Origin: Thiofilum flexile DSM 14609
GTDB taxonomy: Bacteria; Pseudomonadota; Gammaproteobacteria; Thiotrichales; Thiotrichaceae
Direction of reading: 5' to 3'
Assembly: GCF_000380185.1 (NCBI RefSeq)
Contig: NZ_KB904756.1
Coordinates: forward strand, 1-61,450
Length of the DNA stretch: 61,450 bases
The translations under genes were made by a program, and so were the position numbers. Under the pieces are notes generated by a model that was not told the DNA's origin, ran no database searches, and was given only the letters and a program-made list of their open reading frames with translations. Positions 33,490 to 38,290 of this stretch are shown here, one piece after another (the stretch's first letter is position 1; each line of letters starts with the position of its first letter).

Positions 33490-33607
33490 AGCAATCTTCC
33501 AAAAAAGGACTTAAACACTAGGATTGTGCTATACCATACGATAATTGGTTGTATCGGACTAGTTTGCTGGTAATAATAGAGGCTAAGTTATTAAGATGAT
33601 ATAGACC

Positions 33608-33642
33608 AAAAAAAACGGGTTGCACCTTGATGCAGACCCGTT
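33608..33642 (-). terminator. Intrinsic terminator, minus strand, without an obvious gene
   Basis: Minus-strand reading gives an 11-bp stem with one bulge (33642-33631 with 33624-33614) followed by eight T (33615-33608). It is upstream of fbp, so it would end a minus-strand transcript beginning in 33646-34045. No real gene is recognised there. Confidence 0.6.
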
Positions 33643-33973
33643 AGACTTGCGAGGGAGTATTATAATTTTCTTAATAACTAGTTTGAGTGTGTAGTGTCAG
33701 TTTAAAGTTGGCGACGAAGGCCGCCTATCGAATTGAGCCACTAAACTAGAATTCATTAACTAAACTAGTTTGGTTAACCCCATTCGATGACTGTAGGTCG
33801 TAGCCATTTTTAACTTGGTTCAAACAGATTAGAAATTTTCCAAAAAATTTTGCATCTATCAGTAAAGTCAGCGTGCTGGGGTAGGTAAGTGCTGTATTAA
33901 CGCTATATTTGTTTAATATGTGCCACGAAAGAGAAGGGAATGATCCATTGTGGTTCACAGTAAAGCTACCTAG

Positions 33974-33990: not shown

Positions 33991-34045
33991 TTATAAATGG
34001 TATCAAAATATTCAAACCTATCGATAGTTTGAGGCGACATATCCT

Positions 34046-34654
34046 ATGACTGGTTTCTCAAAATATGGGGTGGACGTTACTGAGGTAACTAAACCGGCAG
34101 ATGACGACATACTATTAGCACAGGTTGCCCTAGGTGACCGAGATGCTTTTAGTAAATTATACCTTAAGTATCAACCCCGCCTGGTGAGTTATTGCGCACG
34201 GTTATTAAATGATGATCTAGCACAAGCTGCTGATATTGTGGATGAGGCCATGTTTGATGTATGGCGCTCTGCTGGCAGGTTTGAAGGGAAATCGAAGCCC
34301 TCTACATGGATTTATTCGATTACTCGTAATAAGTTAATTTCGTGGTTGCGGAAAACGTCTGAAGTGACATTAGGGGATGATGAATCACTTTTGGCGATGA
34401 TTGATCCGGCTGACTCTCTCGAGGATGAGCTAGAGATGTCGGATATGAAGCAACAGCTAGTCCGTTTAATGTCACAACTGACTACTGAACACCGTGAGGT
34501 GCTGCGTTTAACTTATTTTGAAGATAAATCTGTCAAAGAAGTAGCCTTGTTACTGGGGATTTCTGAAAACACAGTCAAAACTCGTATGTTTTATGCCCGT
34601 AAACGCTTGGCACAATTGCTTGAAAAAGCGGGGATTGTCGAGTTTGACTTTTAA
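34046..34654 (+). CDS. ECF-family RNA polymerase sigma factor
   Basis: 202 aa. It has region 2 (about 30-100: AFSKLYLKYQPRLVSYC, then DIVDEAMFDVWRSAGRF and WIYSITRNKLISWLR) and region 4 (about 140-192: LTTEHREVLRLTYFEDKS then VALLLGISENTVKTRMFYARKRL). There is no region 1 or 3, as expected for group 4 sigma factors. It directs polymerase to stress or envelope genes. A 22-bp gap leads to its likely anti-sigma partner, and then an S8 protease. Confidence 0.92.
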   Translation: MTGFSKYGVDVTEVTKPADDDILLAQVALGDRDAFSKLYLKYQPRLVSYCARLLNDDLAQAADIVDEAMFDVWRSAGRFEGKSKPSTWIYSITRNKLISWLRKTSEVTLGDDESLLAMIDPADSLEDELEMSDMKQQLVRLMSQLTTEHREVLRLTYFEDKSVKEVALLLGISENTVKTRMFYARKRLAQLLEKAGIVEFDF

Positions 34655-34676
34655 TCTAAAGAGCGATTGATGAGCT

Positions 34677-35489
34677 ATGAGTCGAAACAATGAAGCCTTG
34701 CTTGAAGAGGCACGCCTCTTGTTACCATGGTATTTGACAGGTCAGTTATCAACAGCAGAACAAGAACTGGTTGAGAACGCATTAGGTCAATACCCTAATT
34801 TACAAGACGAATTACGTCACGAGGAACAAATTAAAAAGTTAGTTTGTCAGGACGCACAGTTATTGGAGTTATCCGCTTTGGATACTACTCCACAACGCCT
34901 TGATAACTTACTACGACTGATTGAGCGCGAGGAAGAGCAAAAGGAGTCATTATCTAATGCTGCTAATGTTCATCTAGCTCGCCCTGTTGCTGCTCCTGCA
35001 AAACCTAAAGCTAGCCAACCAAGCCGTTGGAAAGCATGGCTGCAAGATTTATTGGATGCCGAGTGGTTAACACCTGCGAATGCAGTATTGGCTGGGTTAT
35101 TGATTTGTCAGGTAGGGGTGGGACTTGCCTATGTAAGTTATACGGCATCACCAAAACCAGGCGAGGGTATATATGTGCCAGCTAGCTTTTGCGAGATGGA
35201 AAATGTCTCTATTAAGCTCGCTCCGAATGAACAGCTCGCCTTTGCCCAATTTAATGAGTCAGCAACAGTAGGAGAAGTGACACGCTTCCTAGAAAAGAAC
35301 AAGATGAGTCTATTACATGATTCACCTGCTAATGTTCCGAATATGTTTGTCCTTAGATTTCAAACCAATCTAACTGACTATGAGCAAATAGCCAATTATC
35401 TCACGCAAACTCAACATAACTCTGCTAAGGTTATTAGTATATTAGCTAGAACAACCCCAGAAGAAGTGTGTGATAAACAGCCATTATGA
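34677..35489 (+). CDS. Membrane anti-sigma factor, no zinc motif
   Basis: 270 aa. The N-terminal part (residues 8-50: LLLPWYLTGQLSTAEQELVENAL) resembles the helical anti-sigma domain (ASD) that binds sigma region 2, but lacks the H-x-x-x-C-x-x-C of ZAS-type anti-sigmas. A single membrane segment (about 140-158) follows. The C-terminal 95 residues would be periplasmic and are of unknown fold; two hydrophobic stretches with a repeated TxxxITRFL-like pattern are visible. Its position directly after the sigma factor supports an anti-sigma role. It overlaps the protease gene by 4 bp. Confidence 0.72.
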   Translation: MSRNNEALLEEARLLLPWYLTGQLSTAEQELVENALGQYPNLQDELRHEEQIKKLVCQDAQLLELSALDTTPQRLDNLLRLIEREEEQKESLSNAANVHLARPVAAPAKPKASQPSRWKAWLQDLLDAEWLTPANAVLAGLLICQVGVGLAYVSYTASPKPGEGIYVPASFCEMENVSIKLAPNEQLAFAQFNESATVGEVTRFLEKNKMSLLHDSPANVPNMFVLRFQTNLTDYEQIANYLTQTQHNSAKVISILARTTPEEVCDKQPL

Positions 35490-36736
35490 AGTATATTCAA
35501 ACAGGTTTGATCTGCTGCCTAGTCCTACTATCCGCTTGTGCTAGTACGGATGGCACTCGTTATGCTGCCGTTAAAACGGTGCAGACTAATCCTGCCTGTC
35601 ATATTAGTTCCGCTTGGTGCGTGGGTAACTATGCTTACCACCCCATTCGTCCTACTCATTATGTCAAAGACGAGGTATTACTCGTTTATGACCGGCGAGT
35701 TGATGGGCGAGCGGCAGAGCATCTATTAAAAACCTATAAACTACGCCCCAAAAACCGCGCTTTATTAGCTTCTGCTGGGTTAAACCTGATCACTGCCAAC
35801 ACAGGGGGACAAGACCCCTTAGAATTGAAAAAGGCTATTAATTACGCACAAAAGAGTATAAAAGCTCAAACTAATAATTATTATTATACAGGGTCGATTC
35901 CTACTCCTTTAGTCACAAGCACCGGTTATCCTTTTTCACTAACTGGTGTTGAAGCGGCTTACCCTTTTACCAAAGGCAAAGGGGTCAAAATTGGTATGGT
36001 CGACACATCCGTCGATATTTTCCATGAGTCGCTGCGGGGTAAAGATATTACTTGGCCAGACTCCATGAAAAATGACCCTAGAGCCTCTCAGCATGGTACT
36101 GAAATTGCCGGAACTATTATCAGTAATAATCCCAAAGTTGGGATTGCACCAGAGGCTTCCTTATATGTCGCCCCTGCCTTTGGTAAATCTGATAATAAAG
36201 GTACTGCAGCCGATATAGCTAAGGCCATTGAAGATTGTATTAGAGAAAAAGTAGACATTCTGAATTTGAGCTTTGCGGGTGAGCGAGATGAGCTAGTAGA
36301 CACGATGGTTGAGCAAGCACTACGCAATAAAATCATTGTAGTAGCCTCAGCAGGTAATAATGGCCCTGAGGCCAAACCTGTTTACCCTGCTGCTTTGCCA
36401 GGTGTGATCGCTGTTACTGCGATTGATAATAAGGAGCAAATCTTTTCCCGCGCCAATCGTGGTAGCTACATTGATTTAGCTGCTCCAGGGGTTGGAATTT
36501 TCACCACAGCTCCCCAAAGCTCCTATAAGCTTGCCACAGGTACTTCGATTGCTACGGCTCACGTATCAGGCCTGATTGCCTTACTGCTCTCTATGAAACG
36601 TGAAGGTCTCCTTAAAAAGGATTTTACCCCTGATATATTAACTAAATCGGCTATCGATTTAGGCCAAAATGGACGAGATAATGACTACGGATACGGCTTG
36701 GTCAATTTAAATAATGCGCTACAAAAGTTAAAATAA
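35486..36736 (+). CDS. S8 subtilisin-like serine protease, lipoprotein
   Basis: 416 aa. Lipoprotein signal with lipobox LSAC (lipidated Cys18), then a roughly 130-residue N-terminal region likely acting as propeptide or sensor, then the subtilase domain. The catalytic triad is Asp173 (MVDTSVDI), His203 (QHGTEIAGT) and Ser354 (GTSIATAHVSG), with the oxyanion Asn in SAGNNGPE. The 4-bp overlap with the anti-sigma gene implies coexpression. A link to cleavage of the anti-sigma's periplasmic part is a plausible hypothesis and not shown by sequence. Confidence 0.85.
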   Translation: MKYIQTGLICCLVLLSACASTDGTRYAAVKTVQTNPACHISSAWCVGNYAYHPIRPTHYVKDEVLLVYDRRVDGRAAEHLLKTYKLRPKNRALLASAGLNLITANTGGQDPLELKKAINYAQKSIKAQTNNYYYTGSIPTPLVTSTGYPFSLTGVEAAYPFTKGKGVKIGMVDTSVDIFHESLRGKDITWPDSMKNDPRASQHGTEIAGTIISNNPKVGIAPEASLYVAPAFGKSDNKGTAADIAKAIEDCIREKVDILNLSFAGERDELVDTMVEQALRNKIIVVASAGNNGPEAKPVYPAALPGVIAVTAIDNKEQIFSRANRGSYIDLAAPGVGIFTTAPQSSYKLATGTSIATAHVSGLIALLLSMKREGLLKKDFTPDILTKSAIDLGQNGRDNDYGYGLVNLNNALQKLK

Positions 36737-36819
36737 CTTGGTTATAGAAAACTTATCATACTGAGCACAAAGTAGTGAGGGCTATACTACTCTCTATGCT
36801 CTTTGAGGAAATTAATCCA

Positions 36820-37317
36820 ATGCGTATTTATTTTTTTGCTGTGTTTGTCTTTTGCCTACTTATGTTAGGTGCGGCTCTTTTCCTGCAGTTAGTGCTGAAT
36901 CTAGCACCTTGTCCGTTGTGTGTATTGCAGCGCATGATATTGAGTGTTATTGCAGCACTCGCACTATTAGCCACTATCTTCACTACGCGTGAAGGTTGGT
37001 TGCCACGGTTTTGGAGCCTATTATTAGCACTAGGTGGGCTAGCTAGTGTAGGGGTCTCTATTTATCAAACATGGTTAGTCAGCCAACCGAAAGACTCAGG
37101 TGCCTCCTGTGGGCCTGGTCTAGAGGTCGCTCTGGATAAAATAGTAGAGTATTTACCTCAAGGCGAGTGGACCGAAATCATCTATCGTAGTACCGCCTCT
37201 TGTACCGATGGACTCAATACACTATTTGGTATTGAGGTAGCCATACTCACCTTACCCGTCTTTATCATCCTCGCGCTATTCTTATTATGGTTATTATTCA
37301 AGCGCTATGATGAGTAA
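36820..37317 (+). CDS. dsbB: Disulfide-bond formation protein B
   Basis: 165 aa from ATG 36820, which has TGAGGAA upstream. Inner-membrane quinone reductase that reoxidises DsbA. Four membrane segments. C31-P-L-C34 (APCPLCVLQR) is the first redox pair; GASCGPG and the later TASCTDG supply the second pair. It follows the protease operon on the same strand and ends in a strong terminator. Confidence 0.93.
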   Translation: MRIYFFAVFVFCLLMLGAALFLQLVLNLAPCPLCVLQRMILSVIAALALLATIFTTREGWLPRFWSLLLALGGLASVGVSIYQTWLVSQPKDSGASCGPGLEVALDKIVEYLPQGEWTEIIYRSTASCTDGLNTLFGIEVAILTLPVFIILALFLLWLLFKRYDE

Positions 37318-37384: not shown

Positions 37385-37543
37385 TTTATTCCCTAGTTCT
37401 CATAGAGTTAGATAGGCTCAAAATATCACTCTACCTATCCGAGGTGGTGAGGATTTAAATGCTTAAGGAACTTTCTTCCCTCATCTTAAGACTATAAGAT
37501 CACAGACTTATCCCCATTATCTTTGCTGTTAGGAGTCATAACT

Positions 37544-38290
37544 ATGCTCAATTCCTCTTTATCTACACTGTTACTAGCTGGCTTATTAGTATCTGCAACT
37601 GGATCTATTGCCTATGCGGCTGAAGCAGATAACTGTACCTCCTCTTTTTATTGTTATGGCTCTGATGCAACACCTGCGGGTGCCACTCCAGTACGTATTG
37701 TGGTAGAAGGCTCTGATAATCAGGGTACTTTAATTGAAAATGTACGCCGTGATGTCGTAGCAGCTCCTGCCCGCCCCCTTGCTCCTTTGCCTTCGGTGCT
37801 GACTAACGCGCCTACAGCCACACCGACTCGCGTAGTTGCGAACCCAACTGTGAACCCAACTACACGTCCCTCCGTGCTCACTAGTGTTGCACCAACAACA
37901 CCCACCCGCCCCGTTATTAATCTAGCCACTCGCCCCTCAATTCTCACAAGTAATACCGTAATACCTGCCCGCTCTAACCGTCTTACTCTCCCTGCCGTAT
38001 TAGATGCTAATCCAATACCTGCAGCTCCAGTACCTCGTATTGCGCCCCCTGCTCGTCCACGTGCTCAACTAAGTCCTCGTACTGCTCCTATCGCTACACG
38101 TCCAGCCCGTAGAGCCGAGACCACTATTAGTAGTATTGATAGCTGTGGCGCATTAATTGACAAAGCCAGCAAAGCAGAGAGCCAAGGGGTCGTATTTGCT
38201 AAAAATGGTCAAACGACTCAGTCACGCCAGTCCTTCCAAGCGGCGGCTAATTTCCGCTCACAGGCTAAAAATTTAAATTGCAGCGTATAA
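37544..38290 (+). CDS. Secreted Pro/Thr/Arg-rich protein with tandem imperfect repeats
   Basis: 248 aa from ATG 37544, with AGGAG in front; a longer frame from 37523 lacks a site. Signal peptide with a cleavage near AYAAEA. The middle (about 70-190) is rich in Pro, Thr and Arg and carries repeated (R/L)PS(V/I)LT units (PSVLTNAP, RPSVLTSVAP, RPSILTSN). The end (about 200-248) is a helical domain with two Cys, SCGALIDKA and AKNLNCSV. I recognise no family. The repeats suggest a flexible spacer, perhaps for peptidoglycan or surface binding. Confidence 0.6.
   Translation: MLNSSLSTLLLAGLLVSATGSIAYAAEADNCTSSFYCYGSDATPAGATPVRIVVEGSDNQGTLIENVRRDVVAAPARPLAPLPSVLTNAPTATPTRVVANPTVNPTTRPSVLTSVAPTTPTRPVINLATRPSILTSNTVIPARSNRLTLPAVLDANPIPAAPVPRIAPPARPRAQLSPRTAPIATRPARRAETTISSIDSCGALIDKASKAESQGVVFAKNGQTTQSRQSFQAAANFRSQAKNLNCSV

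Follow-up and report, generated by a model that had tools for sequence, protein, structure and literature searches.

Among the described circuits in which a protease acts on the control of an extracytoplasmic function (ECF) sigma factor, sigmaE/RseA-DegS-RseP of Escherichia coli and AlgU/MucA of Pseudomonas are closest to the operon considered here, which lies in a 61,450-nucleotide stretch of the gammaproteobacterium Thiofilum flexile DSM 14609 (contig NZ_KB904756.1, positions 1 to 61,450, forward strand; the whole stretch is referred to as the window) and encodes an ECF sigma factor, a predicted membrane-bound anti-sigma factor and an S8 subtilase. Common to these circuits and the operon are the ECF sigma factor, a single-pass anti-sigma factor, a periplasmic serine protease in the circuit and a site-2 protease, and the algU operon also includes the mucD gene. 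They differ in the site-1 protease, which is the PDZ-containing DegS or AlgW in the described circuits (the roles of DegS and RseP in the sigmaE/RseA circuit are set out in PMC7593790; papers with PubMed Central (PMC) numbers are cited from extracts of their text), whereas a subtilase of the same operon, together with a prodomain-like domain of the anti-sigma factor, is proposed here. The sigmaV/RsiV system of Bacillus subtilis shares the use, proposed here, of the outer domain of the anti-sigma factor as a specific receptor for a hydrolytic enzyme, RsiV being the receptor for lysozyme, but this enzyme is foreign and the site-1 cut is made by signal peptidase (PMC7593790), whereas the ligand proposed here is the operon's own protease.

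The prodomain fold also occurs on separate products that act in trans on subtilases, namely the stand-alone I9 inhibitors SUB1-ProM, Pleurotus inhibitor 1, yeast proteinase B inhibitor and Arabidopsis propeptide-like inhibitor 1. SUB1-ProM additionally has a variable-length tail and a gene beside subtilase genes, but these inhibitors are separate eukaryotic proteins (PMC6993865), whereas the domain considered here belongs to a longer chain in which a membrane helix connects it with an anti-sigma domain. Selectivity of a subtilase propeptide for its cognate enzyme has been described (PMC10580911). Fervidolysin and Tk-subtilisin zymogens combine a prodomain with a catalytic domain as the operon protease does, and PF22148, the fervidolysin prodomain, is the family matched by the corresponding anti-sigma domains of relatives. 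Prodomains bind mature enzymes tightly, and we know of no link between these two zymogens and a sigma factor.

ECF54 sigma factors likewise have conserved subtilase and caspase-fold CHAT (also carboxypeptidase) neighbours, but the group is described without an anti-sigma factor, and proteolytic control of the sigma factor is proposed there (PMC8999054). Neither an anti-sigma factor with a prodomain-like domain nor such an operon appears in the titles and abstracts listed by searches of open-licence PMC papers, a scope outside which the main ECF classification (Nucleic Acids Research 2021) falls, and the extracts of PMC8103513, PMC11557425 and PMC5359297 contain nothing on such an operon.

The interpretation developed below is that the anti-sigma factor carries a tethered mimic of a prodomain, uses it to bind the mature protease and couples the state of the protease to sigma release in an autoregulated module, a proposal for which we consider the balance to be even.

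Conservation of the operon

The three open reading frames (ORFs) of the T. flexile operon all lie on the forward strand, with a 22-bp gap followed by a 4-bp overlap, a coupling recognised in the initial annotation and confirmed here (Table 1). Scanning contigs with close relatives of the anti-sigma factor gave 11 loci with 33-42% identity, nine in Thiothrix or Thiolinea and two assigned more widely (Gammaproteobacteria, Proteobacteria). The anti-sigma factor was present in 27 of the 57 genomes searched (27/36 from the same family, 0/21 others), yielding 29 loci. An S8 gene stands by 26 of these 29 family (Thiothrix-type) anti-sigma genes, a count that includes two contig-end fragments (L051 and L055, the latter starting 790 bp behind the anti-sigma gene). 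The three family loci without S8 are L030, where the contig ends 194 bp after the gene, and the orphan paralogues L034 (4240-5016) and L038 (3083-3829), which have no sigma or S8 gene beside them and whose genomes also hold the full operon.

Searching 369 genomes of the class with a profile of the 29 family anti-sigma factors gave matches in 23, of which 20 do not belong to the family. The class set comprises 20 loci from 19 genomes, a contig-edge fragment (G070) and a second copy in G356 (L082, also with S8) having been left out; S8 is adjacent in 14 of the 20, L106 has a caspase-like gene instead and L111 runs off its contig. With a wider anti-sigma profile, 107 of 398 phylum genomes gave a match, many in the cytoplasmic domain only. 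The best phylum loci bearing the periplasmic C-terminal domain (CTD) have an S8 gene in 28 of 28 cases, twice upstream and once with the anti-sigma gene on the opposite strand; these are the best 30 loci minus the duplicates L120 (of L100) and L122 (of the T. flexile operon). Nine weaker places covering the CTD have S8 in three cases (L227, L228 and L230) and a caspase-like gene in six, and all 37 phylum loci matching through the periplasmic domain comprise 31 with S8 and six with a caspase-like gene. Among the weaker places, L231 and L232 lack confirmation of the domain by the CTD profile on its own, and no sigma match was obtained in L230, L151 and L153.

The 20 top anti-sigma places of the phylum search that match in the cytoplasmic part only were taken as controls. 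All 20 have a sigma gene, none has a CTD (E up to 0.01) or a caspase-like gene, and S8 is found within 4 kb in only one (L218, on the other strand). The contrast between 28/28 and 1/20 corresponds to a Fisher P of 1.7e-12 (rows not independent, several being from one genus), and that between 31/35, with the weaker places included and L231 and L232 left out, and 1/20 to a P of 5.6e-10 (rows again not independent), indicating that the protease gene is tied to the periplasmic domain rather than to anti-sigma factors at large. Operon conservation in relatives, which the initial annotation had named as a check on its idea, thus came out in favour of a retained protease. The operon type spans other classes of the phylum. 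A plasmid of Methylocapsa, an alphaproteobacterium, is one example; its S8 peptidase gene precedes the sigma gene, and the anti-sigma factor is annotated as a hypothetical protein.

No S8 gene is present at the six phylum loci with a caspase-like gene (L151, L152, L153, L229, L231 and L232). Peptidase_C14 (Pfam) was found in L106, L151, L152, L153 and L229, and the genes of L231 and L232 were assigned by similarity only. In L229, L232 and L153 the caspase-like and anti-sigma ORFs share 4 bp; in L231 the caspase-like ORF lies 63 bp behind the anti-sigma ORF, and in L151 and L152 the two are at least 1.5 kb apart. The class of the partner protease may be exchangeable, judging from these gene neighbourhoods. 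Two CTD-bearing frames are present in each of L151 (2411-3701) and L152 (2445-4271), possibly as tandem or divergent anti-sigma paralogues.

Periplasmic domain of the anti-sigma factor

AlphaFold predicts the prodomain topology βαββαβ at residues 185-258 of the T. flexile anti-sigma factor, with a predicted local distance difference test score (pLDDT) of 69-86 over residues 181-250 and 58 over 251-260, in a whole model with a mean pLDDT of 68 and a predicted template modelling score of 0.33. PF22148 matches 10 of 26 diverse anti-sigma CTDs (best E 4.9e-6), and no other Pfam family matches more than one of them. The most explicit case is a distant relative (L067/L105), found by the family's own anti-sigma profile at E 1.5e-8, in which PF22148 lies above the Pfam cut-off (24.8 against 21 bits) at residues 128-199 of 202. 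A search of 200 genomes with the CTD profile gave 14 places, 13 in anti-sigma genes and one in a subtilase, immediately ahead of its S8 domain (E 4.5e-5), and a search with the wider anti-sigma profile gave one place (E 3.4e-6) at residues 154-225 of a protein with an S8 domain at 318-604; both are unlinked subtilases, with S8 assigned by Pfam. A Glu occupies the AEP-motif position in 10 of the 26 aligned CTDs (counted by eye) and probably corresponds to a helix-capping Glu of subtilisin prodomains. Capping residues are described in PMC6993865, in line with the AEP Glu. Homology of the CTD to subtilase prodomains is supported but not proven, the sequence argument being stronger than the structural one, but indirect, and the T. 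flexile domain is here called prodomain-like and not filed as a PF22148 member because no match of the protein to that family is listed in Pfam at E up to 1.

Tail length, taken as a gauge of active-site blocking, gave a divided picture. In 42 of the 68 anti-sigma sequences that could be measured, no more than 10 residues separate the beginning of the last strand from the chain end, whereas tails of at least 13 residues, the BPN' distance taken here as a full tail, occur in 15 of the 68, T. flexile among them (11 of 79 rows were unmeasurable, and one gene, L121/L154, was entered twice). In many family anti-sigma factors the last strand is directly followed by the chain end, the final residue being Tyr, Phe or Leu (FAGEAY, FIGREF); that of T. 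flexile (35432-35489) differs in its longer tail with a Cys. In some subtilases the tail is helpful yet dispensable for inhibition (PMC6993865, PMC10580911).

A number of results weigh against prodomain kinship and docking of the subtilase. For the T. flexile protein Pfam lists only zf-HC2 at E up to 1, the PF22148 cut-off not being reached, and no prodomain family is among the best 25 of the 30 families matching the 29 family anti-sigma factors, T. flexile included, the other five being single weaker matches. The structure matches of the T. flexile CTD include subtilisin and PC1/3 prodomains (9fid_D, Z 6.9, root-mean-square deviation (rmsd) 3.5, 71 aligned; 1scj_B, Z 6.0, 3.7, 68; 1spb_P, Z 5.8, 3.6, 68), but these do not stand out from unrelated ferredoxin-like folds, which reach Z 7.0, and Foldseek with the anti-sigma model gave no match at E <0.001, E for the CTD matches not falling under 0.01; other fold families are conceivable. 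Comparison of hidden Markov models (HMMs) of family CTDs and family protease prodomains was not convincing (P 0.04 local, probability 1.4%), and the CTD profile saw almost none of the operon proteases' own prodomains; two proteins alone scored above 8 bits, L150 (22.9 bits), which is a subtilase not encoded in an operon of this type, and L144 (9.9 bits), with 0/1360 among shuffled sequences. A PDB sequence search with the whole anti-sigma factor and the CTD profile returned nothing relevant. Four class loci (L114, L115, L117 and L119) have no adjoining protease. The caspase-like partners, seen at one class locus and six of the weaker phylum loci, suggest that the CTD may read proteases in another way; these loci argue for the protease link and against a purely subtilase-specific docking. 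We know of no binding of caspase-like proteins to subtilase prodomains, nor of any need for such a domain on their part.

A partial Mantel test on 41 operons belongs with these results, as CTD and S8 distances gave no partial correlation with the sigma factor and the cytoplasmic domain accounted for (r -0.01, P 0.56); the test is weak because the CTD is short and fast-evolving, yet it gives no support. The strongest partial correlation was that between sigma and S8 (0.64), followed by sigma and the cytoplasmic anti-sigma domain (0.26), with the remaining pairs at 0.14-0.16. This absence of CTD-specific S8 coevolution, together with the strong sigma-S8 tracking, would agree with the subtilase being a target gene only, an alternative already raised in the initial annotation, in which it would be an envelope quality-control enzyme co-transcribed with its sigma factor, and with the CTD being a ferredoxin-like sensor of something else that never touches the protease; the generic nature of the CTD fold matches and the promoter motif upstream of the operon, described below, also fit. 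We nevertheless regard this alternative as unlikely, because S8 adjacency depends on the presence of the CTD, a subtilase prodomain is the sole Pfam family that recurs among CTD matches, and every one of the six S8-less phylum places covering the CTD has a caspase-like gene.

The subtilase

The protease belongs to Peptidase_S8 (PF00082, E 8.5e-44), and its triad D173/H203/S354 and N291, the presumed oxyanion Asn, are invariant in all 24 aligned family proteases, T. flexile included. Outside the family a Ser-motif pattern was too strict (52 of 68 passed) and was not used. AlphaFold, run on 12 sequences, places a βαββαβ unit at residues 59-135 with a pLDDT of about 90 (whole-chain mean 66). The model aligns over residues 61-416 with unprocessed pro-Tk-subtilisin (2zwp_A; Z 30.7, rmsd 3.4, 331 aligned) and over 55-416 with fervidolysin (1r6v; Z 27.8, rmsd 3.3, 343 aligned), which is also the top Foldseek match (E 1.2e-19). 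The N-terminal region of 130 residues, initially taken to be of unknown fold, therefore contains an ordinary subtilase prodomain, although PF22148 matches family proteases weakly (3/24). Ahead of this prodomain, Cys38 and Cys45 (35597-35620) are invariant in 12 aligned sequences.

Lipid anchoring had been put forward as a key feature of the protease, but a rough lipobox pattern occurs in only 18 of 67 proteases of relatives, a count with errors in either direction, since L031, L050 and L124 were counted although doubtful and the lipoprotein-like L042 and L048 were missed. As judged from these sequences, the lipid anchor is lineage-specific.

Sigma factor and promoter

The sigma protein matches Sigma70_r2 (E 2.9e-17) and Sigma70_r4_2 (E 2.5e-15) in Pfam, both far above curated cut-offs, and sigma70-ECF in NCBIfam; with regions 2 and 4 present, no region 3 family listed and a length of 202 residues, it is classed as an ECF sigma factor. 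When dyads were sought without guidance ahead of the sigma gene in family loci, the motif AACC-N15/16-CGAC emerged. Of 26 family loci, 17 have the form RAACC-N15/16-CGAC, T. flexile included, 15 of these 17 at -31/-32 from the start codon, against a rate of 0.33% in block-shuffled upstream sequences; the exact form is missing in the remaining nine. The transcript is expected to be nearly leaderless because CGAC lies so close to the ATG.

Use of this promoter is supported but not proven. As a conserved ECF-type motif precedes the sigma gene, the sigma factor probably drives its own operon and, with it, expression of the protease. The motif would serve equally in a homeostat, discussed below. 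For a wider regulon, the leaderless promoter pattern was rarer than the reversed control in each of the 10 family genomes scanned. The sigma-gene site was among the promoter matches listed in at least nine of these 10 genomes (the tenth being G021), and the regulon claim is confined to the operon.

Proposed mechanism

The anti-sigma factor is most simply read as a receptor for the subtilase, as RsiV is for lysozyme, because it has a prodomain-like domain and an adjoining subtilase gene. We infer docking, release on maturation, cleavage and an activating sign as follows. The subtilase would be exported as a zymogen, which in the T. flexile lineage is probably held at the outer membrane by a lipid located beyond its own prodomain. 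Since the anchor is N-terminal of the prodomain, removal of the prodomain would at the same time detach the catalytic domain from the membrane. The free, prodomain-less enzyme would then dock on the tethered prodomain mimic of the anti-sigma factor, and this receptor would see activated protease only, as the enzyme's own prodomain would compete for the same face. Docking would bring the protease to the anti-sigma factor and, in the favoured outcome, the latter would be cut, whereupon an RseP-type site-2 protease would act on it, the sigma factor would be released and the whole operon would be upregulated. The site-2 protease family PF02163 is encoded in the T. flexile genome (E 1.3e-69) and in 14 of 14 control genomes too, so its presence is not specific. 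The initial annotation had suggested a protease that senses a ligand and releases the sigma factor; a direct link between protease and anti-sigma factor is plausible through the prodomain-like CTD, whereas nothing was found in favour of ligand sensing by the protease.

The activating version is ranked first on the ground that active enzyme could be recruited by a tethered mimic whose tail is not full, as in the majority of the measurable anti-sigma factors. The same short chain ends would also allow the CTD to dock without being a substrate, and the same anatomy and promoter motif are compatible with a homeostat, in which mature subtilase on the CTD would shield the anti-sigma factor from cutting by a different protease. 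Shortage of the enzyme, or its engagement with substrates, would leave the CTD empty, so that the anti-sigma factor would be cut and more protease made, giving negative feedback. Such an arrangement would formally resemble the protection of RseA by RseB, since RseB and MucB protect their anti-sigma factors (PMC7593790). We consider this version somewhat improbable, as a tethered binder of active protease is likely to be its substrate too and full-length tails do occur, T. flexile included. A domain that chiefly serves the protease in trans, assisting its folding or restraining it at the inner membrane with sigma control following from this, would be in keeping with the inhibition of subtilases by stand-alone prodomain-like proteins (PMC6993865) and with the full tail not being essential for inhibition in some subtilases (PMC10580911), but appears highly improbable, given that the operon protease already includes a complete prodomain and should not need a second one for folding.

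Extending the receptor proposal, a subtilase prodomain may have been captured by anti-sigma factors in two or more classes of Pseudomonadota as a membrane-tethered receptor for the mature operon protease, with caspase-like proteins replacing the subtilase in some lineages. The ligand would be the protease without its prodomain, and periplasmic zymogen activation would be read directly as transcription. This is offered tentatively, the balance leaning slightly against it. If true, it would add sensing by a receptor that mimics a prodomain to the principles of ECF signalling, explain the presence of an exported subtilase, or in some cases a caspase-like protein, in a set of ECF sigma operons, and provide a reading for the hypothetical protein of the Methylocapsa plasmid. 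As predictions, CTD-protease binding, dependence on Ser354 and autoregulation make the proposal directly testable.

Anti-sigma class and other features

The anti-sigma factor is, by prediction, a membrane-bound protein with cytoplasmic helices (pLDDT 92-93 over residues 11-50), one membrane helix and a periplasmic domain, encoded after the sigma gene. At E up to 1, Pfam lists only a sub-threshold zf-HC2 match (E 0.038) and no FecR family, the mark of FecR-type surface signalling, and the NCBIfam match to NF010501 (E 4.3e-6) is far below the model cut-off. The lack of the zinc motif noted initially holds throughout the family (HxxxCxxC in 0/29), whereas the motif is present in 22 of 50 wider anti-sigma relatives. 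The protein is therefore not filed as a zinc-binding anti-sigma (ZAS) factor, although it is related to ZAS proteins (zf-HC2 in 20 of 25 wider relatives, set A6), and loss of the motif is, across the sequences compared, a lineage feature and not the defining oddity of the system. The periplasmic part, first put at 95 residues, comes to about 113 residues with the modelled membrane helix, some 75 of which form the predicted domain.

Table 1. Positions of the operon features in the window and of caspase-like genes in their own loci
Feature	Position	Strand	Basis or detail
Host genome of the T. flexile operon contig			3.79 Mb
ECF-type promoter motif	34014..34038	+	AAACC -35 (34014-34018), 16-nt spacer, CGAC -10 (34035-34038), 7 nt before ATG
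ECF sigma factor gene, 202 aa	34046..34654	+	Pfam, NCBIfam
Anti-sigma gene, membrane-bound (predicted), 270 aa, without zinc ligands	34677..35489	+	Position after sigma; weak anti-sigma model matches
Cytoplasmic helical anti-sigma domain, aa 3-92	34683..34952	+	AlphaFold helices 3-21, 26-38, 40-69, 72-92
Single membrane helix, aa 133-157	35073..35147	+	AlphaFold helix; hydrophobic stretch in sequence
Periplasmic prodomain-like domain (CTD), aa about 183-260	35223..35456	+	AlphaFold topology; PF22148 matches of relatives
S8 subtilase gene, 416 aa, predicted lipoprotein	35486..36736	+	PF00082; triad
Lipobox Cys18 (LLSAC, +2 Ala)	35537..35539	+	Sequence
Protease prodomain, aa about 59-135	35660..35890	+	AlphaFold βαββαβ; zymogen superposition
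Catalytic domain	35924..36733	+	Asp173 36002-36004, His203 36092-36094, Asn291 36356-36358, Ser354 36545-36547
dsbB gene after operon	36775-37317		Pfam
Caspase-like genes	L106 5111-6478, L153 2927-4945, L229 2950-3756, L232 4590-6092, L231 2141-3715, L151 2-883, L152 3-944		

The neighbours of the operon in the window are a fructose-bisphosphatase gene, divergent from the sigma gene, and dsbB, which had no match in the 28 other family loci scanned. A further gene (37523-38290) encodes an exported-looking product that is rich in Pro, Thr and Arg, has repeated RPSVLTS-like motifs and has no Pfam or NCBIfam match. In the interval that separates the sigma promoter from the fructose-bisphosphatase gene, the minus strand has at 33605-33665 the 19-nt element TTATAATACTCCCTCGCAA and, behind it, a hairpin and a T run (fold z-score -3.55). 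An Rfam search of three loci gave no match in this region. The element and hairpin may represent a small RNA or a leader or terminator, and the 19-mer recurs in slightly degenerate form in 30 of 226 loci.

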